Part shown: positions 1 to 57,508 of the stretch, one piece after another
Layout: each line of letters begins with the position of its first letter
Numbering within the stretch: position 1 is the first letter of the stretch
NCBI GenBank assembly: GCA_030549335.1
Contig: CM060198.1
Span: 55,189,995-55,253,994 of the forward strand
Direction of reading: 5' to 3'
Length of the DNA: 64,000 bases
From: Pontederia crassipes
Taxonomy: Eukaryota > Streptophyta > Magnoliopsida > Commelinales > Pontederiaceae
Position numbers and translations under genes: made by a program
The notes under the pieces: generated by a model
Told to the model about the DNA's origin: nothing
The model's input: only the letters and a program-made list of their open reading frames with translations
The model's database searches: none

Positions 1-7
1 TAAACAG

Positions 8-1760
8 GTGGAGGTTGAAATCACTCAAATGGAAGATGATGCTGAAGGATCACATCAAGAAGTAGAACCAGAAGATGAAGAATATGATGAGCAACATGAA
101 GAGGAGTCAATTGCTGCTAGACGTCATCGCAAGGAAGTGGATCCTCCTAAGCGATATGGTTTCGAGGAGATGGTTGCTTATGCACTGCAGGTAGCTGAAG
201 AAGTGGAATCTCTGGAGTTGTCTTCTTATAGGAAAGCCATCACATGCGCCGAATCTGAACAATGAATCACTGCTATGGGTGAGGAGATAGAATCTCTTCA
301 CAAGAATTAAACGTGGGAGCTGGTCAAGTGCTTAAAGGCAGAAAGGTTGTTGGCTGTAGATGGATCTACAAGAAGAAAGCTATAATTCCAAGGGTTGAAG
401 ACACAAGATACAAAGCATGACTGGTTGCTAAATATTATAGTCAGAAAGAAGGTGTGGACTATAATGAGATATCCTCACCTGTTGTCAGACATACTTCTAT
501 CAGGGTGTGACTTACTCTTGTAGCACATCAGAATATAAAGCTCGAGCAACTAGATGTGAAGACTGCTTTCCTCCATGAAGAACTTGAAGAAGACATTCTT
601 ATGAGCCAATCAGAGGGATTCTCCATTCCAGGAAAGGTGAATCAAGTTTGTAGTCTGAAGAAATCTCTGTATGACTTGAAACAGTCTCCCAAACAATGGT
701 ACAAGAGATTTGACAGCTTCATGATCAGTAAGGAATTTAGTCGAAGTCCTTATGATTGCTGTGTAATATCACAAGAAGGTGAAGGACGACTCCACCATCT
801 ATCTACTCCTATATGTTGATGATATGCTTATTGCTGCTAGAGACATGATAGACATTCAGAATCTAAAGAAGCTTCTCAATGCAGAATTCGACATGAAAGA
901 TCTTGGTGCAGCGCAAAAGATTCTGGGGATGGAAATTCTAAGGGATCGCGCACCGGGTAAACTCTTCTTATCTCAAAAAAGTTGTATTGAAAAGATTTTA
1001 TCCAGGTTTGGGATGTCTGGAGTAAAGCCTTTGAATACCCCTTCAAATGTTCATCTTTCTGTTGCCTTCGCACCAAAATCAGAAGCAGAAAAAGAGTACA
1101 TGTCTCGGGTTCCATATGCTAGTGCAATTGGAAGTCTGATGTATGCCATGATTTGCACTAAACCGGACATTGCTCATGCAGTCAGTGTTGTCAGCAGGTT
1201 CATGAGTGATTCAGGAAAAGAGCACTGACAAGCAGAGAAGCGAATCTTTCGGTATTTGAGAGGAACATCTGATATTGGTATCAGCTATAGAAGTGATAAA
1301 GAGTGTTCGATTGCAGGGTACTCAAATTCAGACTATGCTAGAAATGTTGATAGAAGACGATCTATGACATGTTTTATCTTCACTTTGGGTAGTTCAATTA
1401 TTAGTTGGAAGGCCACATTTCAACCATCAGTTACATTGTCCACAGGCTGAATACATGACACTGACAGAAGCTGCCAAGGAAGGCATCTGGTTAAAAGGCT
1501 TGGTTAGAGATCTCGAATTACATCAGGAGCAGGCCATAGTGCACTGTGATAGTCTGAGTGCAATATGTTTAGCCAAGAATCAAGTACATCATGAAAGAAC
1601 CAAACACATTGATGTCAGGTATCACTTCATCCGCACTTAGAAGAGGATCAATGTGAAGAAGATTGGCACTGAAGACAATCCGGCTGATATGTTCATCAAA
1701 TTTGTTCCTCATGACAAATTCCAGCATTGCCTGGACTTGCTTAATATCAATACTTGGTAA
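8..1760 (+). pseudogene. Copia pol relic (RVT_2 reverse transcriptase and RNase H)
   Basis: The reading begins with an acidic linker rich in E and D (8-265), the usual spacer between integrase and RT in Copia. The RT part reads in pieces: a CRWIYKKK-like block near 355-385, KLEQLDVKTAFLHEEL near 537-585, SLKKSLYDLKQSPKQWYKRF near 652-712, and the catalytic YVDDM at about 812-826. RNase H follows, with GYSNSDYA near 1316, a split TLSTG/EYMTLTEAAKEG stretch near 1435-1475, and KHIDVRYHFIR near 1603. Stops interrupt the frame at about 263, 308 and 418. The frame shifts between the pieces ending at 819 and starting at 779, and again near 1226-1256 and 1448. Expression as one polyprotein is not possible. 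Confidence 0.9.
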
Positions 1761-1824
1761 TAGTCCCAAGGTGGGGTTGGAGGCAGCATGGCATGATTTT
1801 TTGTGCTCTGAAGATGATTCAAGT

Positions 1825-1834
1825 CAAGGTGGAG
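1825..1834 (+). other. Polypurine tract of Copia element
   Basis: AAGGTGGAGA sits 3 bases before the LTR start TGTTAATAAT. This is the canonical Copia plus-strand priming site and fixes the LTR boundary. Confidence 0.8.
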
Positions 1835-1837
1835 ATT

Positions 1838-2244
1838 TGTTAATAATGCTTTGAATCTGAACCCAGTTGATCCCCCTACATAGTCAGACGCTTCAGCAGA
1901 ATTCCCCTACATAGTCAGACGAAAATTTTTAGGGGTATTATGTATGTGATTCGAATTTGATTTATTTCCTTATCACGAGATATGTGTTCTATTTTCAGGG
2001 GATTTATTTACAGTCATAGTCCGTATGTAATGCCTATCATCTCTCAAAGGGAGTGCCTATATAAACTCCCTAGGGGTCTAGACAGAGATCCATCCTTGTA
2101 ATCATCATTATTCCATAACAAAGAGAGCTGCCGCTTCCCGAGGACGTAACTCGATTTAGGATAAACCTCGTAAATCTTCGTGTTCTCTGTGTTCGTGCGA
2201 TCTCTCTCTCCCTCTTTTCGTAACTATATATATATTTGTCATCA
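1838..2244 (+). repeat. 3' LTR of the Copia element (about 407 bp)
   Basis: It starts TGTTAATAATG after the polypurine tract and most likely ends at ...TTGTCATCA. A TATA box (CTATATAAA) lies near 2057. An 18-base direct repeat, CCCCTACATAGTCAGACG, occurs twice near 1873-1921 in the U3 region. The 3' boundary is inferred from the TG...CA rule only, because the 5' LTR is off the window. Confidence 0.75.
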
Positions 2245-2489
2245 TGGGAAGTGCTAAAATTATGCGTACGGATTAAAGTCTAAGTTCATTGTTCAAGTCC
2301 GACTATTCATTATTTTAGCATTGCACCAGATTGTATATAAATAGATAGACTTCCGACGAAAAACAATTATGCACACAAAAGTTTAAACTTGGAACCTGAG
2401 GAGCTGCTATCTAGTTTCCGGTGTAGTTGTCTAGTCGACATTGTATCGTACTTCCAAAATATATAAATAGGCCTCAATGGCTAGTGAGA
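2245..2489. other. Unassigned sequence between Copia LTR and CACTA-like element
   Basis: No gene or recognisable element is seen in these 245 bases. Two TATAAATAG-like strings (near 2336 and 2461) are present, so an LTR fragment is possible but not supported further. Confidence 0.3.
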
Positions 2490-5400
2490 GAAGTCGATCA
2501 TTAACACAATGACACCTTAGCATTTGTCGCTATTAGCGTGGGAGCTGATTTGTCGCTTTAGTGTGGGGCACTGATTTGTGGCTATTTAACACCAGTGTCC
2601 ATAGCTCCTCATGGGCGTGGGACATTGATTTGTCGCTAGTTAACACAGTGACACCTTAGAATCACAACACCATCGACGCTCAGCTTGCGACGCTAATAGT
2701 GTCGCCTTAGCGCCAACAACAAAGTGTCACTTTTATTGTCAACTTTCGGCATTAGGACGATGCTACAATGATACTGGATGTTTGACAAAATAAACTTTAG
2801 TATTGCACTATCAAGTGGCAAAAGAAACGAATTGCATAAGTAGAGTTATCCTCCCTTTTCCCAACCTCATAAAATGCCCCGATCCCCAATCAGATGTTTG
2901 GATGTGAGCTATACTCCGCGAGGAGCCACACGGGCGTCTAACCTTTTGCCTTGCCATTTGACGCTTTGAAGAAAAAGCGAAATGTTCTTAGTCATAAAGT
3001 GCATATTTGGCATCACAATATTGGACGCCTAGGCAGCTATAAAGCTTTAGAAGCCATTGTGATGCCATGTTAGTGCTAGAAAACATGACACTAAAACTTC
3101 TCACCAACGATACTAAAGTGACTCCGAGAGGCACGAAATCGTGACTTCATCTCGATGCCAAAATGACGTTAGATCATGTGGCGCTAAGTCAACGCTATTG
3201 TTGTGCCAAATTCATATAATAGCTCATCACTAATTCGTCATTAATTATAATATATTTTGCCCCACTATACAATTCATTGTTCCCATTCTCTCCTGATCCA
3301 AATTTACAATGCATGCACATCCAACACAATAGAAACTAAAGAAATCTTACAGTCATAATGCACCACATCCACATATACAACACAAAAAACTATTGACATC
3401 ATATATTTTTAATAATATCACAAACTATAAAAAAAGCTAAATATCATCATAATGTTTAGTTTTAGTCATGTTCAATGTTACAATAATTTCTACAGACTAA
3501 TGATCATTTTCATCCTGGCAATTAATTATGACGTACTTGTTTTTGGAGTTTGTAGTGTTTGAGTTTGAGTCTACAAGATGGCATGTAGGGTTTGGAAGAC
3601 TAGCTCTAGCTGCTTAGTGATGAGTTCTCTTATGTTGTTCAATGTCACATTAGGTGCCGTGGATGAATTAGGAGTAGACGAGCTATCAACATTTCCATCA
3701 GTCTTTCTAAAAACTGAGCAACGTTTCTAAACCCCTCAGGTATTCTCTTCATGTTGTCATGGCCGCCTCCTCTCAAACAGCGACATCCTTTGCAAAATAG
3801 ATATGTTTTATAGATATATAATGTGCAGTATCACATTATGAATATGAATTATTTTCGAGATACGTTACCCACTAGCTGGGTCCTAGATCATGTCCAACTT
3901 CTTGGACATCTTTTTATTATATGCATCATAAAATATTTAAACATTGCAAATTTGAGGAATCATTTAATCTAATTGGAACAACCAAATAAATAAATGCTGA
4001 AACTTGCCAAAGTCTATGGGCAGTGGATGTGACAAGTTATTGTTCTTCCTGCTCTTATGCATAACCATGTAGATCGGCCAAAATTCGACAAGACCCTCAT
4101 CTTTCTTCTTCTGCAATAAAATTATAATTTTGTAAAATAAGTAAATATGAGATAAATGATTAACTATTCTTTTTGTATATGCATTAAACATGTGCCGACG
4201 ATGATTGTCCAATTGGATCAACCCTCTTGTATGTATGTGAGCTTCCAACTTAGAAAGTCTATTAATTTTTACAGTTTTAGACTTTCTTTGCAAATCGTCA
4301 TTCATCCTGCTTCACATCAATATTTAGACTTTGCAAAATAATAAATTAAGAAAAAACAATTCAGATACAATGTATTACTTACCATTTCTTGATTTGGGTA
4401 TTTTTGTATGCCCTGCTTTTGATTGATGTGATGACTTTGCAAAAACTGTACAACGCTTGTGGAGACTTCTCAACCACCTCCTCAAAACATCTTCATGTCA
4501 TCCCCAAATTGAGTTTTGAGTGAAATCGGTTTGATTTTCTTAAAAAAAATTATGAAATTTACAAATCAATATAAAATAAGTTATATAACATAAAAAATAT
4601 AGTCATATGATAATTAAGCGAAAGATATCAACCTTCACTTCAATGGGGATATCTTTTCATGATCATGTCTCTTCAGGCAAGTGGACGAGGACAAGAGCAC
4701 TAATATCTTGCAAGGTAGAAGTGAATATAAAAGTGGTCCTATAATTTATAAATTTTTTTTCTAACTATAAGATGAACTATAATAGAATTTGTAAAATTTA
4801 TTTAACTTATGGCCAACTAATATTTTAATAGTCATCACTCTATTGAGTTTAAAAATTTCACAACCGACTCACAAGTAGCCTCGGTTGATGAGATGCTCAT
4901 ACATCTTATAGAATTTTCACAAGTGACGCACAAAATTTTCCATCAATTTTTCCATGTGGACCAATATGTTTGAACTGATCAAATGGGTGTTGAGATAATG
5001 GGGGAAGAAAAAGAGAGGGAGAAAGAGAAATGACATACATTCATCTAAATTCCATGGATCAAACTAATAGTTGTAATATACAACTCAAAACCAATTTTCT
5101 GCTTAATCCTTGAAATAATTAGAGAAAAAAGTTTTAAACATACTAGCAGACATAACCCTTGCTTCCCATTAAATATTAAACAAGTATTATAATAATTCTT
5201 TTAGAGGAAAATGATAAGAAACCACTAAATCCTAAACTAAATAAAGCATAAAAATTTTTTAGGAAAAAACAAGTTTTATCATATTCACATATAATTGAAA
5301 TGTCAAATGGCTATCTTATTATAGTTAATTCTAATTAAAAAAACAACTTAAGGAAAGCTCAAGAGAACAATGCTCATATTTCACGGGATCATGAAGTTTT

Positions 5401-7673: not shown

Positions 7674-7857
<184 letters not shown>

Positions 7858-8569: not shown

Positions 8570-8617
<48 letters not shown>
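8570..8617 (+). repeat. (AT)n microsatellite
   Basis: About 24 AT units. They mark the point where homology with the other two spacers stops. The other copies have an (AAT)n tract at the equivalent place. Confidence 0.95.
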
Positions 8618-8621
<4 letters not shown>

Positions 8622-8857
8622 TGATGTATTGAAGATGCTCACATTATCTTTTTTTCTAAATGATTAGCTTTTATCTCTATTTTTTTTAACTTCCTTCTCA
8701 CATTTAATGTTTTCTCTTTGGTGTAACTCCCATCTGACTCACCATGCTCATTTTATTTCACTTAGATGTTTCCTCTACCTAAAATTGGACAGCTTATATA
8801 ACAATTGAAATAATAATTGTATCATATAATTTTTCATTGTATCTACACTGCATTAAG

Positions 8858-9521
8858 GAACTTTGCACCCGATAACTTCCTCAATGGATTCAGATTCTCC
8901 GAACATAGGCAATATATCCGCCTGTTCAAAGCTTACCAGGTATGTTTATGCCAAAACACTTTGGAAACCTAATCAAATCAACGTCTGCACACACACACAA
9001 AAAAATGCAAATTGCGAATCTGTTTAATAGATCTGCCATTTTTTCATAATTTTTTTTGGTGGAATATGAATTGGTGTCATAATACATGTACCAGTTATTT
9101 TCTTTCAAAAGACCTAAATATGAAGTGGTGTTACAATAAAAGTGACAGGAATTTGGCAGCTCATATATGAGATCTTTCATTATTATTATGTCCACTTTTT
9201 TGGTTAAATGTTTATTCTTTTATTGTAGTTTCTATTATTTTCACAATATTATTAGCAATTTATTACTGAAAAAAATGATTGTGTGCCACTATTAGCTTAA
9301 ATATAAAAAATATTGCAGAGAGGAAGACGTTCTAATCCTAGCTATGTTATTTTGTCTTCATAACTTCTGATCCTTTGTTTATGTTTTGTTGCAATTTTTT
9401 AAAATGTATTCTCATATAATTGATCTTATTTTATGTTTTTTTAGAGGAGATCTTACTTTCATGTTTACCCCGCTACATCATGCGATCACACAATTTCTTA
9501 TTTGAGAAAGAGAGGATCAAG
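8858..9521 (+). pseudogene. Two exon-like blocks of an unrecognised host gene
   Basis: Block a (8858-8939) lies between an AG acceptor and a GTATGT donor. It reads APDNFLNGFRFSEHRQYIR and then LFKAYQ without a stop. Block b (about 9447-9521) follows a T-rich tract ending in AG, precedes GTATGG, and reads EILLSCLPRYIMRSHN and then FLFEKERIK. Both have balanced amino-acid composition and proper splice borders, unlike the surrounding AT-rich sequence. I do not recognise the protein. The blocks may be a gene fragment carried by a transposon or a remnant of a decayed gene. They lie upstream of a Copia relic and FPG exons in the same orientation, but nothing shows that these belong together. Confidence 0.4.
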
Positions 9522-9725
9522 GTATGGATACATGCATTTATTTTTTATGCTTAATAACTCCATTTTTATTGATTTAAAATATATAGTTTTTTATTTTATA
9601 ATTTTTATAATTTTTTTAAAAGACATGATATACGATTTCATATAAATAGAAGTTGGAGGTATCTGATGTGGATGCAGAGACATTTCTTTCCCTCCCAAAT
9701 TATTTTTCTGTTTGAATTCTTGACA

Positions 9726-10490
9726 TGGTATCAAAGTAGGCTACAGATTCTGGAGTGATCTCTACCTGAAGCTTCTTGTCTACGTCCAAATTCTGGGCGA
9801 ACTTCCACAATCAGGTCCTTCGTGCAATTGATTCTTCATTCTTACATATTGATTGTTCTTTGGATCTTGTTTGCAATTGGTTTCTTATCCTTACAAATCG
9901 ATTGCTTATCTGAGATCTTGCTGTGGTTTTTCTCTTCGATTCGGATCATCAATGGCCGATTCCTTGAATCCTCCATCTTCCTCTCTAGTTTTGACTATGG
10001 ATCCTACACATCCATTATACTTGCATCCATCAGATTTACCTGGTCTCGTATTAGTTCCGGTACGATTAAATGGTTCAAAAAACTATTCGATGTGGAGTCG
10101 ATCTCTTTTGAATGCCTTCTTAGCAAAAAAAAAAAAACAAGTTAAGATTCATAGATGGATCTTGTAGAATGGAACAGTTTGATCAATTGTTACGTTTCCA
10201 ATAGAAACGATGCAATGCACTTGTTCTTTCTTGGATCATTTTGACAGTTTCTGAAGGTCTTCTTGGCGGCAATATTCCATATGTGTCTGAACTGTGTTGT
10301 GCAAAAAGATTTGAAAGAGAGATTTGAGCCAATTGGTGCCTTACAAATGTATCAATTACATAAGGAAATTACTATGTTCACACAAAATTCCTTTAGTATT
10401 ACATAATATCATACCAAGTTGAAAATCTTCTGGGAGGATCTGTGTAGTGTTATTCCCATGCTAGGAATCTTGAATCTTGAATCCTGAAAA
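9726..10490 (+). pseudogene. Copia retrotransposon 5' relic: PBS and gag (Retrotran_gag_3-like)
   Basis: TGGTATCAAAGTAGGC at 9726 follows ...TTGACA and matches a primer binding site complementary to initiator-Met tRNA, so an LTR end lies at about 9725. The start codon at 9952 opens a frame with PLYLHPSDLPGLVLVPVRLN and then GSKNYSMWSRSLLNAFLAKKK, the N-terminal signature of this Copia gag family. After a poly-A slip near 10127-10138 the frame breaks. Further family-like stretches are seen in other frames, such as DLKERFEPIGALQMYQLHKE near 10306-10365 and YHTKLKIFWEDL near 10410-10445. No pol follows and no 3' LTR was found, so this is a truncated relic. Confidence 0.75.
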
Positions 10491-10798
10491 TGTATTGTAT
10501 TTTCGACAGTTAAAAGTTTTATCATTTCTTCTTCTGATTTTTTTTCTTTCTTTGGCTGGGCTTGCGGATTTACTGTCTATACTCCATATGATCTTAATAT
10601 CAATGTGGCATTAGTCAGGAGTAAATTTTCCATGATCTGGCGTTTGAGTTTATTATATTTAAGTTTTCATTGTTGATAATGTCGTAGAAAAGCATGGCAA
10701 TGCGGTGTATTCACCTACATTGTGTCAAACTGTCCGGAGGAATCGTGTTATTATGATAACCGGCAGCACTTCTTGAACTGCCTTCCTGTCTTATGCAG

Positions 10799-11094
10799 CT
10801 AGATGATGGTCTGGAGCTATCTTTTAATGACAAAAGGCGTTTTGCCAGAGTACGCCTGCTTGAAGATGTAAAATCTTGCCTCTGTCATTCGTCTTTTTTT
10901 TTTTTGTTAAATTGATTAAATACAATTTTCGGTCGATATGATTACCATTCTTGTTGATTTGTGTACGGCCAGAGGCTGTGCCTCCAATTTCTGAACTAGG
11001 GCCCGATGCTTTGTTTGAACTCATGCAAGTTGCTGCATTTGTAGACTCGCTAAGCAAAAAGAGTACGGCCATAAAAGCCCTCTTACTTGACCAG
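10799..11094 (+). pseudogene. FPG: Fragment of formamidopyrimidine-DNA glycosylase gene (two exons)
   Basis: Exon 1 (10799-10867) follows TTATGCAG and ends at a GT donor. It reads LDDGLELSFNDKRRFARVRL and then LED. Exon 2 (about 10975-11094) reads AVPPISELGPDALFE..., then FVDSLSKK, and ends ALLLDQ before a GTAGGA donor. These match consecutive interior exons of plant FPG/MutM-like base-excision repair glycosylases, including the conserved KRRFA and ISELGPDAL segments. The N-terminal catalytic proline exon and the C-terminal helix-two-turn-helix part are absent here. Only about 63 residues remain, so no working enzyme can be made. The fragment lies just 3' of gene copy 1, on the opposite strand, inside a block missing from the other paralogous units. 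It is likely a transposon-captured or translocated piece. Confidence 0.8.
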
Positions 11095-11199
11095 GTAGGA
11101 GTTGGTAGTATGTTGAGCCAACCTTCTTAGGAAACTCTTTTCCCTCTTGGGAGTTTCTATCTTCCCAAGCGAGAAAAAGAGAAACAATCTCATTTATAA

Positions 11200-11898
11200 C
11201 TATTCTACTTCTCTTCTATCCTTCACATACAATGTCTTATGTTTGATCTGAACCTTTCTTGGCACCGATACTGGAACAGGAGACGCCGCCGCCGCTGGAG
11301 GAGTAGGATACAAGTTGTCGTTTGGACATGGCAGCTCCTTTCTGGTGGCGCGGTGGACATCGGCGAGCCTCACGACCCCCTTCTTCACCTCATTCAGTGA
11401 GAGCACCGACGCCAACCTTGGACCTCCGGGCGCGACGTCAGCGGCGCCGAAGCCGATGGCGGCCCTGGCGATGAGATCGAGCATTTTATTCAGGAGATTA
11501 GACGAATCGGCGGCCCTGCCTCCCGAAACATTGTGGATGGCGACATCAAAGATGATCCTTGACATCCACACTTTGAGCGCATGAAGGTCCATTCCGGGGT
11601 AGCCGATGAAGCGGAAAATTCCTTGGTACATGGCGCCCATCAACGCATCCAACACCTTCATCATGAACGTGTACCCGTGGCCGTCGGAATCTTCCCGGCT
11701 GATGCGGTGCGACCCTGAAGCTGCTGTGTCGATGGCTCTCAGTTTCTCTACAGCTGTCAAGGTCCCAGTGATGGTATGGAGCGCCTTGAGCAAGTCACGG
11801 GAAGACGAGATCACGAACGGCACGAATCTGCCGGCGCATGGAACGATGAACGATGACGCAGCTAAGAGGACGAGGAGGAAGAACACCGAAGACTTCAT
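11200..11898 (-). CDS. Small secreted helical protein, paralogue copy 1 (function unknown)
   Basis: A single-exon minus-strand frame; the open frame itself reaches up to 11955. The TATA box at 11965-11972 puts transcription start near 11935-11942, below the first two ATGs (11955, 11946). The likely start is therefore 11898 (MKSSVFFLLVLLAASS) or 11922. The protein begins with a classic signal peptide ending near PCAG. It continues as an Ala/Leu-rich, probably helical domain (DLLKALHTI, MMKVLDALMGAMYQGIFRFI, LLNKMLDLIARAAIGFGAAD) and a Pro/Ala tail (PTPPAAAASPVPV). Only one cysteine remains after the signal, in KELPCP where copy 2 has KELPRP. The last 16 residues come from sequence not shared with copies 2 and 3. 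No known family was recognised. G/C-rich third positions suggest a genuine gene. Most differences from copy 2 are G/C in copy 2 and A/T here. Confidence 0.65.
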   Translation of the reverse strand: MKSSVFFLLVLLAASSFIVPCAGRFVPFVISSSRDLLKALHTITGTLTAVEKLRAIDTAASGSHRISREDSDGHGYTFMMKVLDALMGAMYQGIFRFIGYPGMDLHALKVWMSRIIFDVAIHNVSGGRAADSSNLLNKMLDLIARAAIGFGAADVAPGGPRLASVLSLNEVKKGVVRLADVHRATRKELPCPNDNLYPTPPAAAASPVPVSVPRKVQIKHKTLYVKDRREVE

Positions 11899-11964: not shown

Positions 11965-11972
11965 TATTTATA
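11965..11972 (-). promoter_or_regulatory. TATA box of gene copy 1
   Basis: TATAAATA on the minus strand, identical to the one upstream of copy 2. It lies 7 bases from the end of the solo LTR, so all promoter sequence farther upstream is now LTR. Confidence 0.75.
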
Positions 11973-11979
11973 CATCTCA

Positions 11980-14900
11980 TGTAGCACCCCGAAATTCGGC
12001 CCCACCACACGGCGCGACCTCCTCCCGCGGCGCTACGTTGACTCTGACTCTTTTCCTCTTTCTTGACTCTTTTGTTGACCGGACAGTCAACAACAAGGAA
12101 ATGCAAAGCGGAAGACCGAAGGAATTTATAATACAACGAATGAGTTAATGAATCTAGCGAAGACTTAAAGAAATAGGATAATACAACAATATGAAAGAAA
12201 TGCGGAAGCTAAATAAGAAATGGTACATCCAAGAGGCATATACACATCCATGCCAAAAGTACAACCCTATAGGTCCCATCTAAACTCTAGGTAGCCATGT
12301 GCATACACCACTAAGCTGTAGTCGCCGCACACACTTCAACGGCTCGCGATCGTCATCGAATACCTGTGGGGATCACGCAGGGGAGCAAGCTCAACCGTTA
12401 GCATAAAGCTAAGTGTGAGTTCATATAAATCATAGATCAGTTCTGTTAGAACATAGCATGAAATTAATAGAAAAAAGGGAAATGAAATCAAGTTATCACA
12501 ATTGGTTCCAATCAAAATACGCATGAGAAGAGCATATAATTTCATAGAAAAATCATGATGAATACATCCTGTCAAAATGGTATAAAGGAGATTATGTCAT
12601 CGGTATCAAAGTAGGATCAGATTCCTTGGGAGAAAGAGAGGGAAAATCATCTTTTCATAAAACGGCATAATGAAGATCATAACATCAGTATCATAGTAGA
12701 AATTAGATCACAAGAGAGAGAACATATTTTCTCTCATCAAAGTATGACATGGAAGGAGGTGAAATCAACGTGAGAGAAAGATCAAGTCATCCTGAACCGA
12801 TGTCATTAGTTATGGTAAAAATGGAGATCATAGTATCAATGTTATAGAAGAAATTAGCATGATAGAAGATTAAGTCATGATGGATAAAATTTCATGAATC
12901 ATGGCATAGATGGAAATCATAATGGCAATAGCATATAAGAAGATCAAGATCATGATAGAGACCACATTTTTCACATTCACTTGCCATGCTTGACTTTCAT
13001 ACTTTTCATTCATCTTTCATGCATTACATGTCATGCATCTTTCATAGCTTTACATCTTTACATACTTTGCATCTTTTACTTGTAGCTTTTTGAAGAGCTC
13101 TTCATCTTGAAGGGAATACCATTGCTTAGAACGGATAACTATCTAGACATCTTGTGCTCGTGGGGGATTAGTGCCATGGCGAACCCCATCGAGTTGGGAT
13201 GCCTCCGCCACCGGCGAGATGAAACATCCATGGGAGAAACTCCCGCCTAGATAGAGCAAATGGTAATCCATGATGGGGCCTATAACGAGGAGAGAACATC
13301 ATCCCTCATCATACCTACGCCTGTCTTTCGGTCCGTCCACCGATCAAGGCAATGACAGGTCATCTGCGCCTGTCTTTCGATCCGTACACAGATCAAGGCA
13401 AAGACAAGTCATCATCTTAATTTAGTCTTTATTTAGTTAAATAATCAGGTGGATGGAAGTTGCTTAGAAATCAGGGTTAGGGTGAAGGGTTGTTACTTCC
13501 AATCCACACGACGGATGTCCTAAGGTCACGGTCATCTGTCGAGACATTAGTCGACCGAGGAGTGTGGTCGCCATTTCTTAACATTCTTGTTCTTCATGTC
13601 GGCGTTCTCATTCATGCATCGTCATGTTCATAGGAGTCATCATTAATTCAGAATCATAGTCATAATCATACATTCCACGAGGATCAATATAGTTCATGGC
13701 ATAGAAAGCATAATCATCTTCGGTTCTTTTCATGAAGAGAGATTTCAAATCATGTTCAAATATGAGATATGGGTCAATATAGAATCAATGGATAACATTT
13801 ATGGGTCAACATAAAAAAAATCAGGAGGTTTCACATTTATTCAGAAAGTCAAAAGTCGTAATATCGAAAAATAGGACCAGAACCCGGGCCGAGTGAAAGA
13901 AGACCCGAGCCGAGTTGGTCGGAATCAAACTCGGTCTGTCGAGTTGAAAAACTGAGAAGAGTCGGGCCGGGTTGAGTTTACACCCGGGCCGAGTTGGGAA
14001 GACAACCGAGTCGGGAGACGACCGAGTCGGGAGAATCGATTCTTCCGATCGTCTTCTCCGCGCAGAAACCTGAGCCGAGTCGTGTGTGACCCGGTCCGGG
14101 CACCTGGTTCGTCCCGAGCTCGAGTTCGGCATCCATGGCGGACCCGGGCCGTGCTCGGGGCTAACCCGTGCAGTGACGATAGAGCCCAGGCCGAGTTTTG
14201 GGAACTCGGGCTGGGTTCTGTCGAGTCATAAAGTAGGTTCAAGGTTTCGTTATTTTTCGGTGATCGACGACATGATACAACTAAATTGACTAAGCTACTA
14301 ACATCACAAAACGCACATCCTCAAAGCATTCAAAGTTTAATGCAAGAATCGTGTTAAGCATGGAAACTAGAAAAGAAGGCTTCGATAATCGGTTCATACT
14401 TCTTTCATTGTAACATCAACTCGTTTGCACATATAGATCGTGACATTAGGACATGTATATGTCCGTTCCAAGGATAAATTATGCATCAATTCATTCATGG
14501 CAGCGGAGTCATCATTTTACGGAACATCTTGCATTCATATTCAAGGGTTCGGTTCATGGATAAATCAAACATGCTTAACTCATCGAGAAACTCGACCTAT
14601 GAAGAAGATCCCGAACGTACACACCTTCTTGCCTAAGCCGTTGGGGTTTGTCCTAGTGCTGTCCGTGTTTCTCACCCCTTCTCATGTCGTCAGCGCCGGA
14701 GGTGGTCGCTGACGTCTGTCCGTACTCGCTGCTGTCCGCTTGCCGGAGAGGGGAAACAAGACAGGTGAGGCACGAGGTCGGAACGATGAAAACAGAGGGG
14801 AAGGAGGACAGACCCTTACTACTTTGGAGTCGGAGACGATCACTGGCGCTGCTCGTCCATCCTCGGCTGTCCACGCACCAGAGGAGAAGAAGAGCGAGTG

Positions 14901-15391
14901 TGAGGGAGCGAGAGAAACAGAGTGTGCGCAGGGGAGAAAATGGAGAGGGAAATGAGGGAGGTCCTCACCGCGACGGAGTCTCCGCTGTCCGCCTCCTCCG
15001 TCGCCGAAGTCAAGGACGTTCGCCGACACTGGTTGCTCGTCCCTTGCTGTCCATGACCACGAAGGGACCGTGAGAGGAGAGAGAGAGAGAGAGGAGAAGG
15101 GGGTCGGGTGCCTTATATAGAGGAGGAGGAAGAAAACTTCTTCCTTGGTGATGAAGGGAGATCTCGGTGGCAGGATCCTTGCTGCCAGGTGCTGAGATTT
15201 CCTGCCATGGCTGCTCCAATCGGTGAGGGAGAGAGTGTGGAGTGCAGCAGGGCATGCAACAGCAGAAGAAGACAAGAGGAAGGAAGAATTAGAAAGGGGC
15301 CAGCAGGAAAAGACAAAAGAAAGAGGAGGAGGAAAAGGGAAACCTGTCCGAGACTTCTCAGATTTTTTTTTTGATTGACCGTGGTGTTACA
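11980..15391 (-). repeat. Solo LTR (3.4 kb, Gypsy-type) in the promoter of gene copy 1
   Basis: On the minus strand it starts TGTAACACCACGG and ends CGAATTTCGGGGTGCTACA, the TGTAACACC...TACA ends of Tekay/Del-like LTRs. Flanking pentamers TCTCA (11975-11979) and CCTCA (15392-15396) look like a target duplication with one change. Copy 2 has the uninterrupted site (TATTTATACACC followed by TGACCAACTA), which confirms an insertion. A TATATAAGG box on the minus strand near 15112-15121 indicates that LTR transcription would run leftwards, towards and in the same sense as gene copy 1. Internal microrepeats of CCCGGGCCGAGTT type fill 13860-14230. Open frames at 14653-15397 fall in the LTR leader and are not supported as genes. 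Confidence 0.85.
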
Positions 15392-17360
15392 CCTCATGTC
15401 ATGACCAACTCCACGTCGGGTTCGGAGTAGGACTTTGGTTTTCTTTCGACGTCGACTTTGGTTAGGAGTAGGACTTTGGCTAGGAGTAGGACTTTGGTTT
15501 TCTTCTACTTAAATTATTTTTTTCTTACATAATTAATTATTTTCCAAACATAAAATTATTTTCTGATTTATAATTTATTATTCTTTATAAGTAAATTTTA
15601 GTTTTCATTGGACTCAAATTGATTGTTTTTGTTTTAAATTATTTTTTAAAATTTGAAAATAAAACAATGTCGTCTAAAAACAAAATAGTATAATATCTTG
15701 TTATACTTTTACATTGCCTTTTAGAAAGAAAAAAAGATTATTTATTTTAATCATACTCAAATTGAATTTTTATTTTTATTTATGAAATAATACATTAACT
15801 TTTAAGGAGGAAATATTAATTTATTTTTAGTATACTTGTCCATTATCCTTTAAAAAAGAAAACAATCCTTAATTTGGTCTCAATTTCTTAAATTTGAATT
15901 ATTTTTTAATGCCAAAATAACTAAATATCTTTTAAAAAGGAGTAAAGAACGCTTCCTTATCAGCTTGTGTGAGGGCGTCGAATATGATCCGACAGTCATT
16001 CTTCTTTTTGTTTTGAACCTTTTATTCTCATCAATTCGATGGTCGTGATATCCCCCTCCTCTTCCTCTTCTCCATGTTTCTGCCGGTTTCGTCCACCCTC
16101 CACCACGAACACGAGACGTCCGACAGTGGCAGTGGCACAACAACATCGCGACAAAAGCAATGACATGAGCAACGCCACTGGCAATGACGTCTGGTAGTGG
16201 GCACATCAACGAGCAGATTGACGAATATGTCGACAGAGAGATGCGAAAGAGGGAGAAAGAAAAGACTTGCTAGCTGAGATGTAGTCTGTATTTGCAGTTC
16301 CGACGACGGAGAGGACGTGGAAGAGGGACACCGAGGACCGTCGGATTGTGTCTGACGACTCTCACGCCTGCTTAGTAGGTGCTTACTCTTTAAAAAGACA
16401 ATATTATTAATTTCATTATACTACTATGATATCTTTGAGAAAGAAAATATTATTTATTTTAATCAAATTGAATCATTTATTTTAAATTTATGAAATAATA
16501 AATTTTTAAAATAAAATATTATTATTTTTATTATACTCGTCAATTATCTTTTAGAAATAAACATTTAATTTTAATTGGACACAAATTGAATTCTTTATTT
16601 TAAATTATTTTTTAATTAAAAACAAATTATCTTTTTAAAAGGAAATATTACTTACTTGTACCTTATCTTTCCTTCTAATTAAATTACGATATGAAATCTT
16701 CTTTTATTTGTGTTGCCTTATCAAAAGACACTTATAAGATAATTTTTATTTTATGAAATTATTATACTTTTCCATTATCTTTAAAATTGAAAATATAAGG
16801 AAAGATTGATATTAACTGGACTCAAATTTGATTTCTTTATTTTAAATTATTTGGACTCAATTGAATTCTTTGCTTTAATTTCCCTTCTAATAAAAAAATT
16901 AATACATTTATCTTTTAAAAATAAAAGATTATCTTTTATTATACTTGTACATTGCCATTTAGAAAGCAAATTTAATTTATCTAATTATTTTTTTCAGAAA
17001 AGTCTATATTATTTATTTTAACATATTTTGTGTGTTACCGTCTAGAAAGGGAAGGCTAATTATTTTGATCATACTCAAATTGTTAAAAAGAAAATATTAA
17101 TCTTAATTTGATTCAAGTTGAATTCTTTATTTTAAATTAGTTTTATTACCAAAAATAAGAAATTATCTTTTAAAAAAGAATTATTATTTAATTCTATATT
17201 ATCTTTAAGAAAGAAAATATTATTATTTTCATTATACTCAAACTGATAAAAAATAAATATTAATCTTAATTTCAACTCAAATTGAATATTTTTGAAAATA
17301 ACTATTTATTTTTTAAAAGAAATTATTATTTACTTGCATAGTATCTTTTAGAAATAAAAG

Positions 17361-20804: not shown

Positions 20805-21730
20805 TGTAACACCCAAAATAAGTCCTCCTATCACGTAAGCAGTCAGATTGACGGTCTGTAGGCAATACAATAAGTTCTGCTACACCGGTCGACCGATATC
20901 TCTAGATCGATCGACCGATGGGACTTAATCAAAAGGAGCTTCGATCGATCGATCGGCCGAATGATACAAGGCTCAGGAGGATTGATCGGTCGACCGGTCT
21001 CCAAGGATCGGTCGACCGATAACCTTATCACCGGTCGACCGATATACAAGATCGGTCGACCGCTCTGCATGAAAAATAGAAACCGAACAGAATGGAAATA
21101 ATGACGATTTTCAAGCTAAAATTACAATCAAAGCATTCAATCAACCATCTATGCATGAAGAACTAATACAGAACATATCTACAATCATAAGAATCATAGA
21201 ACATGCATCAAACACAAGAAGAGCAATCAATCATTCCATTCCATGCTTCTCTTCAATCAAGAACACTGTCCATGTAAGAACCCTAATTCTAATCAATTGA
21301 TAATCATGTTATACAGGGGATTTCGGTATCACCCACCTTATCTCGTGATTGCTCCTAGCTTGAGCCTTTTCAATCACCAAGAACACTTCCCCTTATTGTT
21401 CTCCACCCAGGAAGCCATCCAATTGGAGAGAGAAATGAGTAATGGATCTAAGGATTAAAAGGGTGCAGAAATGTAGATAACCTTGATGCTACACCTTGCT
21501 AGAATCCTTCTTCTCTTGCTAGATGATGTGCTCAAAGGGAGAAGAGAGAGAAGTGAGGGAGAGAAATGGTGGCTAAGAGAGGGAGCTTTAGGGCAATTAG
21601 CCTCTTTATAGGGTAGTTGTAGGGCTATTAGGCTAATGGGCTCACTAATTAGTTGGGCTAGGAAATTGGTCTTTGCAATTTAATTTTCATTTTCTAATTA
21701 ATTTTTTTTAAATGTGGACCGAGTATTACA
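20805..21730 (-). repeat. 3' LTR of Gypsy-1 (926 bp)
   Basis: On the minus strand it starts TGTAATACTCGGTCC directly after the polypurine tract and ends TTGGGTGTTACA. A TATAAAG box lies near 21603-21612. Bases 20880-21066 hold a cluster of palindromic GGTCGACC-type motifs. The LTR is less than half the length of the Gypsy-2 LTR and clearly different in sequence, although the coding regions are close relatives. Confidence 0.85.
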
Positions 21731-21732
21731 TT

Positions 21733-21748
21733 ATTACCCCCTTAAAGA
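21733..21748 (-). other. Polypurine tract of Gypsy-1
   Basis: CTTTAAGGGGGTAAT on the minus strand, two or three bases before the LTR. Gypsy-2 has the same tract (CTTTTAAGGGGGTAAGAA). Confidence 0.8.
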
Positions 21749-21774
21749 AAAATTCGTCCTCGAATTTTGCACTA

Positions 21775-24700
21775 AGTAGAGATCTTACCAAACAGATGCG
21801 GGAACTCCTGGCGCATCTCTAACTCGAGTTTCCATGTGGCTTCATCGCCGTGGTGATAACGTCAGGCCACCCTGACCATGGGCACATTTTTATCCTTCTA
21901 GCGCTGTATCTTCCGCTCCACTATATGAGTCGGATACTCCGCGAAGGTCAAATCCGCAGCTAGATTTGGCTCTTCGATCCGTAAGACATTAGCAGCATCG
22001 TGCTTGTACTTCTTCAGCATGGAGACATGAAACACATTATGCACTCGCCCATAGGAAAGTGGCAATGCTAGCCTGCAAGCTGCTTCACCTACTAACTCGA
22101 GTACCTCAAAGGGTCTCACATAACGAGGACTGAGCTTCCCTCGCTTACTGAACATCATAACTCCTTTCATAGGAGACACCTTCAACAGAACCTGATCACC
22201 AGCTTGAAAGATCTACTCACGTCTGCCCTTATTCGCATAACTCTTCTGCCTGCCCTAAGCTGTCTTCGTCCTCTGCTTGATCAGCTCTACTTTCTCAGCA
22301 TACTCTACAGCCTCCTTCACGTCTTCTTTGCTCATGATCTTCTCCTCACCTACTTCACCCCAATGAGCGGGTGAACGACAAGGTCGGTCATATAAAGCCT
22401 CGAAGGGCGCCATGCCGATACTGGAGTGGTAACTGCTATTATAAGCAAATTCGATCAGATGGATATGTTCATCCTAGCTACCCTGCCAATCCAGTGCACA
22501 AGCTCGTAACATGTCCTTCAGCGTCTGTATAGTCCTCTCAGACTGCCCATCGGTCTGAGGGTGGAAAGCGGTGCTGAAATTCAACCTGGTACCAAATGTC
22601 TCCTGCATGCTCTTCCAGAATCTAGCAGTGAATCTAGGATCTCGGTCTGAAACAATCGATGCTGGAATGCCATGTAGTCTAATCACCTCCCTAACATACA
22701 AGTCCAACAGGCTCTCTACCGACTGCTTCCACCGGATGGGGATGAAGTGCGCTGCCTTAGTGAATCTATCCTCCACCACCTATATGGCATCATGACCATT
22801 CTTAGTCCTGGGCAGGTTGGATACAAAATCCATAGTGATATTATCCCACTTTCACTGTGGGACATCTAGAGACTTCAACTTCCCGTAGGGCCTCTGATGC
22901 TCAATTTTCACTTGCTGACACACTAGACATCTGGACACGTATTCAGCTATCTTCCTCTTCATATCCGGCCACCAATAGTTGCGCTGCACATCTTTGTGCT
23001 GCCAGTATGGATAGCAAACTCGAACTTATGGCACTCGTCCATTACCTCCCGTCTGATGGTGACATCTGTGGGAACTCATAACCTGTCCCTATATCGTATC
23101 CCTCCATCTGCAGATACTTGGAAGTCTGTCGGTTCCTGTTGACATCTCTTCATCACCTTCTAATACTCCGGATCCTCCTTCTGGGCAACTATGATCCTGT
23201 CAATCATGCTAGGCCTCATCTTATGCATCATCCATATCGCTCCGTTAGTGCCAAGTCTGGGACACCACTGGTCTAACTCCTGCAACATCTCATACTCCCG
23301 TACTCGGATGTAGGCTAAGGAACCTTCCCACTTCCTGCTCAGTGCATCGGCCACTGAATTTGCTTTACCAGGGTGGTAATTAATAGCAAATTCGTAATCC
23401 TTCAATAATTCTGACCAACGGCGCTGTCTCATATTAAGATCTCTCTGATCAAAGATGTATTTGAGACTTTTATGATCTGTGAAGATCTCAAAAGTCTCTC
23501 CATAAAGATAGTGCATCCAGATCTTCAAGGCAAAAACTATAGCAGCTAGCTCCAGATCATGAGTGGGATAGTTCACCTCGTGCTTCTTCAACTGACGCGA
23601 AGCATAGACCACCACCTTACCATGCTGCATGGGTACACACCCTAAGCCTGTCCCGCATGCATCGCTGTAAACTACATATCCTCCGCTGCCCATCGGGATG
23701 GTGAGGACAGGTGCTGACGTCAGACGATCCTTCAATGTCTGAAAGCTCTATTCACACTTATCAGACCAGATAAACCTCTCAGCTTTCTTCGTGAGGTTCG
23801 TGAGTGGTGCTGCAATCTTGGAGAAGTCTCTGATGAATCTCCTGTAGTAACTTGCCAATCCTAGAAAGCTGCGGATCTCTGATGCATTCTTCGGCCTCGC
23901 CCAATTGGTCATTGCTTCTACCTTCGCAGGGTCCACTGAAATTCCCTTCTTGGATACTATGTGTCCAAGAAACATGATCTCCTTTAGCCAAAATTCATAT
24001 TTGGAGAGCTTGCCGAACAACTTGTGTTGGCGCAGAGTCTCCAACACTATCATGAGATGCTCCCGATGCTGCTCTGGGCTGGACGAGTAAATCAGGATGT
24101 CATCCACAAACACTATGACGAACTGGTCCAAGTAGGGCCTGAAGGTCCTGTTCATCATGTCCATAAATGCTACAGGAGCGTTCGTCAGTCCAAACGACAT
24201 CACTAAAAACTCATAGTGACCATACCTAGACCGAAAAGCTGTCTTCGATATGTCCTCCTCAGCAACCCTCAACTGATGATAGCCGCTCCGCAGATCGATC
24301 TTGGAGAATACTGATACCTTGGACAACTGATCAAAGAGATCATCAATGCGGGGCAAATGATACTTATTCTTCACCGTCACCTTGTTAAGCATCCTGTAAT
24401 CAATGCAAAGCCGCATTGAACCATCCTTCTTCTTCACAAACAGTACAGGTGCTCCCCACGGTGAAACACTTGGCCGAATGAAGCCCTTGTCTAACAGTTC
24501 CTGGATCTGCTTCTTCAACTCATGCATCTCAGCAGGTGCCATGCGGTACGGTGCCTTGGAGATGGGTGCGGTGCCAGGTTGAAGATCGATCTTGAAGTCC
24601 ACCTCACGCCTTGGTGGCAATCCTGAAGTGTCTTCAGGGAAAACATCTGGGAACTCACGCACTATATCTATCTGTTGTAGTGCGGTGACTGGTGCATCGG

Positions 24701-25440
24701 TCTTCACTACACTTGCCAAGTAGGCATAACATCCCTTTTGGATCATCTTTTGAGCCTTCATAGCCGAAACGATCACCTTCTTGCGCTCTGATGGAGTACC
24801 TCTGGTGACTGTTTTTGGCTTGCCCTGTGCACCTATTATGATCTTCTTCTGTTTGTAATGTAGAGCTGCATCATGGTAAGAAAGTCAATCCATCCCTAGG
24901 ATGACATCGTAGTCTGCCATCGGAATGACGATGAGATCTGTAGAAAAATTCTTCTTCTCTACGGTGACAAGTACATTCGGGATGTACCTGGCCGCGCGAA
25001 GGTCTCCCATGGGCGTGCTCACTCTCATGGCATGAGACATCTGCTGCAAAGGCAAGCTAAGAGCTTGGGCGCACGACTCCGAAATAAACGAGTGCGTGGC
25101 CCCTGAGTCAAACAAGATAATGGCAGACACGCCATCAATAGGAAGAGTACCTCTGATAACGTCATTATCATTCTGCTCCGCATGTGCCTCCATGTGATGC
25201 ACCCTTCCCTGGGTTACAGGGTTTGCGCCTCCTGCGCCCTTGTTATCATGACCCCTCCTAGCAGGCTGGGGGCAGTTTCGGGCGAAATGCCCGAACTGTC
25301 CGCATAAGATGCACGCACTAGTCCTCTTGCAGCATTCGCCGTCATAGAATCGCTCGCAATGTGGGCAACAAAGCCTCTGTGGAACTACTGGCGCTGGTGG
25401 CTGAGGCTGACGTGGAGGAGGTGGCAGCTGTCTCAGAGGC
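21775..25440 (-). pseudogene. Gypsy-1 gag-pol relic with chromodomain
   Basis: From right to left on the minus strand the order is as follows. The gag zinc knuckle CILCGQFGHFARNC lies near 25270-25315. The aspartic protease DSGATHSFIS lies in the frame 24885-25202. Reverse transcriptase occupies 23748-24776, with [37 protein letters not shown] and the catalytic [10 protein letters not shown]. RNase H occupies 23160-23735 and includes [20 protein letters not shown]. The integrase core frame is 22474-22779 (TKAAHFIPIR, VSDRDPRFTARFW, FHPQTDGQSERT). The C-terminal domain is in 21898-22185 (GRVHNVFHVSMLKKY). A chromodomain runs into 21775-21900. Premature stops divide these into separate frames, for example a TAG replacing a glutamine codon at 23748. 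The order RT-RNase H-integrase-chromodomain is that of chromovirus Gypsy elements. Confidence 0.9.
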
Positions 25441-25459
25441 TATTACATGAAACGTGAGG

Positions 25460-38195: not shown

Positions 38196-38282
<87 letters not shown>

Positions 38283-38548: not shown

Positions 38549-39220
38549 TCACAGCCTTCGCTGCAGCTGATGGCGAAGAACCTTTCTTGGCACCGATACT
38601 GGAACAGGAGACGCCGCCGCCGCTGGAGGAGTAGGATACAAGTTGTCGTTTGGACGCGGCAGCTCCTTTCTGGTGGCGCGGTGCACGTCGGCGAGCCTCA
38701 CGACCCCCTTCTTCACCTCATTCAGTGAGAGCACCGACGCCAACCTTGGACCTCCGGGCGCGACGTCAGCGGCGCCGAAGCCGATGGCGGCCCTGGCGAT
38801 GACATCGAGCATTTTATTCAGGAGATTAGACGAATCGGCGGCCCTGCCTCCCGGAACGTTGTGGATGGCGACGTCAAAGATGATCCTTGACATCCACACC
38901 TTGAGCGCATGAAGGTCCATTCCGGGGTAGCCGATGAAGCGGAAAATTCCTTGGTACATGGCGCCCATCAACGCATCCAACACCTTCATCATGAACGTGT
39001 ACCCGTCGGAATCTTCCCGGCTGATGCGGTGCGACCCTGAAGCTGCTGCGTCGATGGCTCTCTGTTTCTCTGCAGCTGTCAAGGTCCCGGCGATGGTATG
39101 GAGCGCCTTGAGCAAGTCACGGGAAGACGAGATCGCGAACGGCGCGGAGCTGCCGGCGCATGGAACGACGAACGACGACGCAGCGAAGAGGACGAGTAGG
39201 AAGAACGCCGAAGACTTCAT
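38549..39220 (-). CDS. Small secreted helical protein, paralogue copy 2 (function unknown)
   Basis: This is the best preserved copy. The frame is open from 39277, but the TATA box at 39287-39294 implies transcription start near 39260 or lower, so the start is probably 39220 (MKSSAFFLLVLFAASS) or 39244. The mature protein after PCAG has about 200 residues. It has amphipathic, Ala/Leu-rich segments (DLLKALHTIAGTLTAAEKQR, FMMKVLDALMGAMYQGIFRF, SNLLNKMLDVIARAAIGFGA), GGPRLASVLSLNEVKKGVVR, and a Pro/Ala-rich tail ending LRHQLQRRL. There is no transmembrane segment beyond the signal peptide and no recognised domain. Relative to copy 1 it lacks two residues (HG in SDGHGYTF). Third positions are strongly G/C. 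Secretion is inferred from the signal peptide; the role is unknown. Confidence 0.75.
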   Translation of the reverse strand: MKSSAFFLLVLFAASSFVVPCAGSSAPFAISSSRDLLKALHTIAGTLTAAEKQRAIDAAASGSHRISREDSDGYTFMMKVLDALMGAMYQGIFRFIGYPGMDLHALKVWMSRIIFDVAIHNVPGGRAADSSNLLNKMLDVIARAAIGFGAADVAPGGPRLASVLSLNEVKKGVVRLADVHRATRKELPRPNDNLYPTPPAAAASPVPVSVPRKVLRHQLQRRL

Positions 39221-39286
39221 GCCGGCGAAGGGTCTCTGTAGCATCGCATGCAGGTGGGCACCTCGCATCGCATGCATGTTGCGCCG

Positions 39287-39294
39287 TATTTATA
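39287..39294 (-). promoter_or_regulatory. TATA box of gene copy 2
   Basis: TATAAATA on the minus strand in the context GTGTATAAATACGGCGC, conserved with copy 1. Here the upstream sequence is uninterrupted, so this copy shows the ancestral promoter. Confidence 0.75.
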
Positions 39295-39295
39295 C

Positions 39296-39597
39296 ACCTG
39301 ACCAACTAGGAATTTGGTTTTTTTCCGACGTCGACTTTGGTTAGTAGTAGGACTTTGGTTAGGAGTAGTACTTTGGTTTTCTTCTACTTAAATTATTTCT
39401 TTCTTACATAATTAATTATTTTCCAAACATAGAATTATTTTCTGATTTATAATTTTTTATTCCTTTTATAAGAAAATATTAATTTTCATTGGACACAAAT
39501 TGATTGTTTTTTGTTTTAAATTATTTTTTTAAATTTGAAAAGAAAACAATGTCTTCTACAAACGAAATAGTATAATATGTTGTTATATTTTTAAATA
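39296..39597 (+). repeat. Remnant of element X leader upstream of gene copy 2
   Basis: Matches 15397-15700: TGACCAACT, CGACGTCGACTTTGGTTAG, several AGTAGGACTTTGG units, then CTTACATAATTAATTATTTTCC. It stops abruptly at TTGTTATATTTTTAAA. The rest of that X copy is missing. The short AGTAGGACTTTGG tandem units are close enough to the gene to influence its promoter, but no known element was recognised. Confidence 0.75.
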
Positions 39598-47914: not shown

Positions 47915-49923
47915 TGTAACGCCCCCAAATCGACCCCCGCCACGTGGCGAAGACCAACCTGGAGACGCTACGACATGCTATAACTTGACCATAATATTGA
48001 CCATATCTCAGTCAAGAACCGAGACATGTCAGCGGAAGAAAAAGAAATAAAGATAAATGATAACTTTAATTGCGGAAATTTAAAAGTGACTATGTCATTA
48101 CTAAGAAATAAAATAAGTTCTACATCATGAATCAAAAATGCGGAAGGTAAATGAAAACTAATAAGCACTCTAAAAGCCCTATGGTTCATGTGTTGTCCTA
48201 TCGCCAGAGCCCCATCACCACACGCCTACTCCACCACGTCACTGACATGGTCCTGTGAAAATCAGACACAGGGGAGGAGGTCCTCCCGTAAGCTTTACAG
48301 CCTAGTGGAGAACCACATGATATACAGTGCATGACATGAATATAGTAATCAACGGTAAATAATCATGCTTAACTTGAACGTGAAAGATAACATATCAGTA
48401 TCATGGATCATAATGAGAATAAGATTAGTAGATATCATGAATCATGAGGATCAATAATATATATTAAACTTGGAATCATGGCATACTTGACTTGACTTGA
48501 ACTTGCTTCTTGATCTTGGTTATTAATTAGCAATCAGGGTGACTTTAGGTGCCTTTAATTCTTGGGGTATGCCCAGCAAACGATACGGCCTTGTGCGGGT
48601 CAATGGGTGATCAAACCATGACCAAGGGAGCGACCCTTATCTTGATGCACTTGGCTTGGACTGGCAACCCATCGTTAATATTTCATCTGAGCTTATTAAT
48701 CACTTTTAGTATCTTGTCATTCTTTGTATCATATGATGAAGGTGATGTGATCGGTATGAGGTAAATCAAGATAAAGAGTTCATGTTGAAATCATAAGGAA
48801 ATCAATAATGTTCATATCAAAATAAGGGGGAGACTAATGGGTCGAATATCAGATAAAAGAATTGCTAATAAAAAGAATTCAATAAAAGTAGGGAAATTAA
48901 ATAAATGGATTACCTTGCCGAGAAAATAAAAACAAATATAGAGAAAAAAAAATTTTACATCATTTCTTTCTCTCAACCTCTCACATCTCGGTCTGTCAAC
49001 CCTTTTATTTTTTTTCACCATTATCTCTTTTTCTTCTCTCTCTATTAGCATGCGGCTGTGATATCTCAATTCCTTTTTTTTTACGTGATGTTACAGACCC
49101 TTTTTGTTTTTCCTCAAGATTCCTTTTTCTTCTCTATTATCACAGAAACTCCTTTTTTTTTCTATGCGTGCCAAACAATGGCCATTCTTTTTCTCTTTTT
49201 TTTTTCTCTTTCGGCGGCGGAACATTGTTGGACGAACTCTCTCTTTTTTTTTAAACCATCACGTACAATATTAATCCAAATAATAATCAAAGAACCTACG
49301 GATCCCTCCTACGTACTTTCTCCCTACGCTAAATCCTACATCCTAGCAATTAATAATACAGAAATAGAACAAATAGAAATAACTATGCATGCAACAATCA
49401 ACCAATCAAAGAATTCAAGAAACCAAACAATTAAAAACAATAACTTGAATCATATTCATATTCTTTTCATAACGATTAGGGCATGAATTGAGATAATTCA
49501 GAGATCATGCAAGGTGATTTCGATTCACCCACCTCTGTACGTGATTAATTCCTCTTTCCATTTGTCGGAAATCGTTAATGGCGCCCTTGTTCTTCCCCTG
49601 GTTCCTCTCGGCCAGCCAACTATTTTTTTGATCGAGAAGAAGAAGAGAAGACATTCTCTCTGGGTTTGCACAGGGCGGCAGCAAGGGAAAAGAGCAGACT
49701 CGTGGGTTTCAAGGAAGAAAACAAGGGTTTAATGAATTTTGTTTTTGCCTTATATAAGTTCCTTCTCCCCAAATAAATCTGATAAGATCAGATTTATAAG
49801 ATTCGATTTTTAATTTCCTTCCTTTTTGACTTTGGGTGGGATTGGGTTTTGACTCCTTTAATGCCCTGCCCAATCGTAAATTTTATTTTCCCCTTTTTTT
49901 TATCTTTTCCCTTGGTTGTTACA
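47915..49923 (-). repeat. 3' LTR of Gypsy-2 (2,009 bp)
   Basis: On the minus strand it starts TGTAACAACCAAGGG after the polypurine tract and ends TTTGGGGGCGTTACA. A TATATAAGG box lies near 49751-49760. Confidence 0.95.
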
Positions 49924-49925
49924 TT

Positions 49926-49943
49926 CTTACCCCCTTAAAAGAA
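49926..49943 (-). other. Polypurine tract of Gypsy-2
   Basis: TTTTAAGGGGGTAAGAA on the minus strand, adjoining the LTR start. Confidence 0.85.
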
Positions 49944-49964
49944 AATTCGTCGTCGAATTTTGCA

Positions 49965-56803: not shown

Positions 56804-57508
56804 CATGTTTTATATGTTATCTTATATGGTGACCCCAGAGTTTTATATTCACCGTGGCATGAGTTTATATGTCACATAACGAGTTAGATTAAAATTTTTA
56901 ACTCGTCATATGGATTGATTGAATAATATCATTTATTTTATATTCTTAATATTTTTTTTCTATGTAGATTGTTCATAATTGGAATGATACTTTGAACTCT
57001 GAATTTTGATACCATATTAAAATTGATGTAGCTAACTAATTTTTTAAAAAGTTCAAGGCGCTATTGCTCGAGTGTAATATTTATTATTTTATATTCTTAA
57101 AACATGGCATATGAGTTAGACTGATGGAGTAAAAAAAAAATCGATAGTAGAAGTAGATATTATTGTCTCTTGAGTAGTCTACCGTAGGAATTGAGGATGT
57201 GCGTTTCGAAATCCAATTCAACCTAGTTCTTAGGTCGATAAAAAAAAATGAAATTCCTCAACTACTTTTCTTTGGAGTGCGAATTTTAAAGTGCAGTTTC
57301 CATTACCATTAGTTTTATCATCTCTCAATTTATTCAGATACAAAATAAAATGGCAGAATTTTCCTCAAAATATTTATAACTTGTAAGCAGTGTTGGCCAC
57401 TTATTAATGATATGATGATGCCGAAAATTAATAACTTAGTCATTCTCTCTCTCTCTCTTCTTTATCTTTTCGTCTTTGTAATAGAAAACTACATTTTTGT
57501 TTAAATTG

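Follow-up and report, generated by a model that had tools for sequence, protein, structure and literature searches.

Retroelement insertions into promoters, solo LTRs and the silencing of duplicated genes are well known, and the locus described here, a gene copy with a solo LTR directly upstream of its TATA box, is an ordinary kind of event. In grape, the Gret1 solo LTR at VvMYBA1 is 824 bp long, and the solo-LTR allele is expressed (PMC10249860). In Oryza minuta, a hAT element occupies the promoter of one duplicate of Gene 19, and both methylation and silencing were measured there (PMC3890553). For plant LTR retrotransposons of the Del lineage, LTRs of 1.1-4.8 kb are reported, with a type A U5 end that places GGG at positions -8 to -10 (PMC4029996).

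The present locus resembles the grape allele in having an apparently Ty3/gypsy-type solo LTR in a gene promoter, presumably left by recombination between LTRs, but differs from it in that the LTR is 3.4 kb long and lies seven bases from the TATA box, and in that a substitution scar in the gene suggests silencing (PMC10249860). The likeness to Gene 19 is that one duplicate has a transposon near its start and the other has none, with methylation as the proposed route; however, the transposon in that system is a DNA transposon, whereas here it is a solo LTR, and the substitution scar alone is seen (PMC3890553).

The window, by which we mean the whole 64,000-nucleotide stretch of Pontederia crassipes DNA that was analysed, is part of contig C16 in a 1.13-Gb genome. 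It contains frames of Ty3/gypsy type (gag, protease and reverse transcriptase) as well as frames of copia type (gag and integrase-region), and no part of it reaches the gathering scores of Rfam. Two Ty3/gypsy internal regions (21726-25441 and 49919-53629, both on the minus strand) are 76% alike, and an element of copia type occupies about 33.2-35.4 kb.

The gene forms an array on C16, consisting of copy 1 (c1), copy 2 (c2), c3 (split in two), c4, c5, c6, c7 and the fragments of c8. A genome search with its protein listed 20 matching places; off the array there is an unlinked homologue on C15, and there are others on C7, C8, C11 and C15. The gene product has no match in Pfam or NCBIfam, and its single-sequence fold has a mean pLDDT of 42.6. 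The open frame of copy 1 (11200-11898, minus strand) has 232 codons, runs from ATGAAGTCTTCG with its ATG at 11898, and takes its final 16 codons and its stop from foreign DNA; that of copy 2 (38549-39220, minus strand) has 223 codons and is LTR-free. The TATA box of copy 1, TATAAATA, lies at 11965-11972 on the minus strand, and the identical word is present in c2, c3b, c4, c5, c6 and the C15 homologue. In copy 2 it occupies 39287-39294 (minus strand), and compared with C15 the sequence immediately upstream has two deletions, one of 8 bp and one of 18 bp. Copies 1 and 2 have long simple repeats in their 3' flanks, (CT)n at 7729-7850 and (TTA)n at 38198-38282. An insert of about 8 kb, which takes in the gag frame at 61.8-63.2 kb, splits the coding sequence of the third copy (56799-58218 and C16:55256340 onward); the promoter part of this copy is LTR-free and is located outside the window. 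Copy 3 was dropped as an outgroup because it and copy 2 are recent sisters (99.4% identity over 339 bp), and the C15 homologue was taken instead.

The solo LTR upstream of copy 1 spans 3,412 bp (11980-15391) and, read on the minus strand, begins with TGTAACACC and finishes with CGGGGTGCTACA. It has TG...CA ends and a flanking 5-bp duplication, and native sequence adjoins it on both sides; at this site there is no internal region and no second LTR, and it is therefore a solo LTR. At least 101 stretches of the genome match it, with 40 of 2,276 candidates scored, and the best other match among those scored is 86% identical over query positions 1-3070. Elsewhere the element occurs as an LTR pair (L009 and L010 on C13). 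L013, L014 and L015, which match best after the window LTR itself, are solo LTRs with the same ends as it and with perfect 5-bp duplications of their own, CACAA, TTATC and GGGAG, respectively; the fourth, L007, has no matching duplication. Judged from these features, the LTR identity of 11980-15391 is not due to chance. Two relatives, L009 (C13) and L016 (C5), have the primer site TGGTATCAGAGC 5 and 6 bases past the LTR end equivalent to 11980, and in L011 it differs by one base. Because the primer site lies beyond that end, the element sense is the minus strand, the same as that of the gene. The sequence-only reading of this locus had proposed a 3.4-kb solo LTR in sense orientation, separated by seven bases from the TATA box of copy 1 and displacing all native upstream sequence, and each of these points is borne out: the bases between the LTR edge and TATAAATA are 11973-11979, and the displaced sequence can be recovered on the far side of the LTR.

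Both the length of 3,412 bp and the U5 end ...CGGGGTGCTACA fit type A of the Del elements (PMC4029996). A reverse transcriptase linked to the window LTR was looked for and not found: one reverse transcriptase and one gag-protease of the window, used as tblastn queries, matched neither L009 nor L016-L019, and the gag-like frames in L017 and L018 are on the other strand. The Del (Tekay) lineage is a candidate for this LTR on its length and U5 end. A solo LTR cannot be dated by comparing paired LTRs, and no age is claimed.

The insertion point can be read from the C15 homologue, in which the empty site is uninterrupted (GGTCATGACATGAGG joined directly to TGTATAAATACGG) and the target reads TGAGG followed by TGTATAAATA. 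Multiple alignment misplaced the C15 bases at this site, and a pairwise alignment was used there. Because C15 keeps the exact empty site, the LTR insertion in copy 1 is derived; and because C15 reads TGAGG, the target duplication was originally TGAGG on both sides. The far-side repeat (15392-15396, minus strand) is still TGAGG, and the gene-side repeat (11975-11979, minus strand) now reads TGAGA in element sense, its A being a later mutation of copy 1. Native upstream sequence of copy 1, displaced by the LTR, resumes at 15397-15714 (minus strand) in alignment with C15, and from 15428 in alignment with copy 2.

That the insertion point is certain, as the sequence-only reading held, still stands, but the proof comes from C15 and not from copy 2. 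The promoter of copy 2, which had been called uninterrupted, has indeed no LTR, but it is not the ancestral promoter: it lacks 8 bp and 18 bp at the insertion point, and the first of these deletions removes part of the target. Because copy 2 is deleted exactly there, C15 provides the firm empty site. Copies c3b and c6 look like copy 2 at this point, and c4 and c5 lack more. The LTR is present at c1 and at none of c2, c3b, c4, c5, c6 and C15; c7 has a different element. The 18 bp absent from copy 2 contain, in C15, the word CCACGTGG, a G-box-like sequence, near upstream of the TATA box. This stretch of about 18 bp is absent from the array copies (in copy 2, within 39240-39400, and also in c3b to c6); copy 1 retains an altered form of the word, GACGTGG, now 3.4 kb away.

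Copy 1 is also damaged at its other end, a feature that was absent from the sequence-only reading. Its similarity to copy 2 ceases at 11250, right after VPRKV, beyond which copy 1 continues with 16 residues and a stop that are all foreign, and copy 2 with nine native residues and the native stop. Foreign DNA at 8575-11249 takes the place of the native last nine codons, stop and 3' UTR of copy 1, as judged from the loss of similarity to copy 2, and the native 3' flank starts again at 8574. This 2.7-kb segment has a (TA)n run at one edge. Among six copies compared, the C-terminus is changed in copy 1 alone; the native form persists in c2, c4, c5, c6 and c7, slightly altered in the last of these. 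Because copy 1 is damaged at both ends, the LTR is not proven as the cause of what befell the gene, its effect being confounded with that of the 3' lesion.

Deamination of methylated cytosine leaves an excess of CpG transitions, and the coding sequence of copy 1 has such an excess. Between copies 1 and 2, the gene differs by 26 mismatches in 719 columns, and the transitions are one-sided: A/T stands in copy 1 in 18 of them and in copy 2 in a single one, and CpG sites of copy 2 account for 13 of the 18. The same ratio is unbiased in the flanks (4:4 upstream and 16:22 in the 3' flank). Private changes were counted in seven sequences (c1, c2, c4, c5, c6, c7 and C15) over 712 columns, with both c3 pieces left out. 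Copy 1 has 18, comprising 16 C>T/G>A changes (11 CpG, 3 CHG and 2 CHH), one reverse transition and one transversion; C15 has ten, with no CpG transition among them, c5 has one, and c2, c4 and c6 have none. Private CpG transitions thus account for 0 of 11 changes in the five LTR-free sequences together, and copy 1 differs significantly from these five (p = 0.0012, Fisher's test) and from C15 alone (p = 0.0016), it being understood that c2 to c6 are near-identical relatives and hardly make five controls, and that C15 is the only long independent branch, its changes unpolarised.

Counted by site, with c2, c4 and C15 for comparison, copy 1 has transitions at 12 of 135 CpG sites, at 5 of 263 other C/G sites and at 0 of 276 A/T sites (CpG versus other C/G sites, p = 0.0025). 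The CpG changes start at codon 5, near the start of the gene. CpG transitions also occur in LTR-free copies: one, at column 749, is common to c4 and c6 and is present in c3a, and the flanks of c6 and c3a have single ones. Assigned to branches, CpG transitions make up 11 of 18 changes in copy 1, and the LTR-free branches together have 2 among 24 (p = 0.0005); this comparison is not main evidence, in that shared changes were assigned by hand, column 749 was counted twice, and column 428, where copy 1 and c7 both differ, was omitted. The flanks of copy 1, which are A/T-rich with 4 and 12 CpGs, have no CpG excess, and the LTR itself has a weak one (private transitions at 8 of 117 CpG sites versus 37 of 754 other C/G sites). 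Ten of 16 substitutions in copy 1 change an amino acid, which fits neutrality, and dN/dS between copies 1 and 2 is about 0.5; because the C15 homologue is equally rich in amino-acid changes (8 of 10), the share of such changes does not discriminate, and dN/dS was dropped as evidence. A literature search found no paper on deamination beside transposons, and one on insertion at a core promoter brought up a single maize paper.

Further damaged members of the array bear on the origin of this scar. Copy c7 (locus L029; C16:55317945-55318660 plus about 0.8 kb upstream), which lies outside the window, is preceded upstream by an LTR-like end in antisense orientation, TGTCACGGGG...CCCCGTGACA, beyond which there is a primer site, also antisense. 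This retroelement differs from the window LTR and ends 22 bp upstream of a damaged TATA box, GATAAATA; the native C-terminus and stop of c7 are retained. The 24 private changes of c7 comprise 16 of the C>T/G>A type (11 at CpG), one reverse transition and seven transversions (p = 0.0068 against the five LTR-free sequences, Fisher's test). The broken copy c8 has transitions at 15 of 117 CpG sites and also at 22 of 243 A/T sites, and it looks simply older and freer. In c1, c7 and c8 the promoter is displaced or is unrecognisable in the bases fetched, and all three have CpG transitions, c8 with much other decay. Because c7 is scarred despite its native C-terminus and stop, promoter displacement is a better common factor than 3' damage; with so few events, it is not proven as the cause of the scar.

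A history that would account for these observations, to which we give about an even chance, begins with a long-LTR retrotransposon entering TGAGG just upstream of the TATA box in one member of the tandem array, in the orientation of the gene. This insertion separated the core promoter from its native upstream sequence and placed it beside a repeat of a type usually methylated in plants; the element later collapsed to a solo LTR, presumably through LTR-LTR recombination. Methylation probably then spread over the short coding sequence of copy 1 and the copy was silenced, and the one-sided C>T/G>A changes would stem from deamination of the methylated CpGs. The sequence shows the insertion, its orientation, the empty site, the lack of an internal region and the one-sided scar; methylation, silencing and the role of the LTR as their trigger are what we infer from it. 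It is distinctly possible, if on balance doubtful, that copy 1 was instead silenced and methylated on account of the break at its 3' end, or simply because it is a duplicate in decay amid repeat-rich DNA; the LTR would then be a bystander, which perhaps landed in a copy that was already dead. That the C-terminus is changed in copy 1 alone of the six compared, and that the broken c8 also has CpG transitions at 15 of 117 sites, would fit such a course, but c7 is scarred with its native end in place, and both pieces of c3, which a different insertion has split, have stayed close to copy 2, so that a break need not bring a scar, even if the break in c3 may be recent.

The sequence-only reading had left two outcomes for the LTR, a supply of an alternative promoter or, if methylated, silencing of the copy, and our analysis favours silencing, for which the CpG-transition scar in the coding sequence speaks indirectly. 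The LTR's own TATA-like box, TATATAAGG (15111-15119, minus strand; position 273 in element sense), is a motif only. It points in the right direction, and a TATA-like word stands at the same place in four of six relatives (TCTATAAG in L015 and L016, CTATATGA in L014 and TTCATAAGG in L007), so that it may well be the element's own promoter, although nothing recognisable is found there in L013 and L009. That copy 1 is driven from it we nevertheless consider very improbable: 3.1 kb with 122 ATGs separates TATATAAGG from the TATA box of the gene, two AATAAA words lie on the way (LTR positions 1551 and 1959), a transcript would have to cross these 3.1 kb or splice them out, and the scar speaks for methylation. 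Expression of copy 1 from its own TATA box, with the CpG transitions reflecting either CG-only methylation in the body of an active gene or chance, would be in keeping with the retained TATA box, leader and open frame, with the small numbers of CHG and CHH changes (3 and 2), and with the grape VvMYBA1 promoter, in which a solo LTR is compatible with expression (PMC10249860). We nonetheless think it decidedly unlikely, given that the CpG changes of copy 1 set in as early as codon 5, beside the start codon, and that copies with native promoters have almost none.

Returning to the silencing of copy 1 after LTR insertion, a broader form of this model would have the TATA-proximal spot hit repeatedly by unrelated retroelements (7 bp away in c1 and 22 bp away in c7), each insertion being followed by heritable methylation of the whole gene, such that the count of CpG transitions in a copy would serve as a clock since silencing. 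We regard this extension as speculative and rather unlikely. The array nevertheless constitutes a natural experiment, in which copies with native promoters (c2 to c6 and the unlinked C15 homologue) can be set against those whose promoters are displaced or lost (c1, c7 and c8), six versus three, and the substitution scar can be read without methylation data. If the model is true, methylation passes from the repeat across the TATA box and into the coding exon, and the scar would offer a way to date the silencing of a gene copy.
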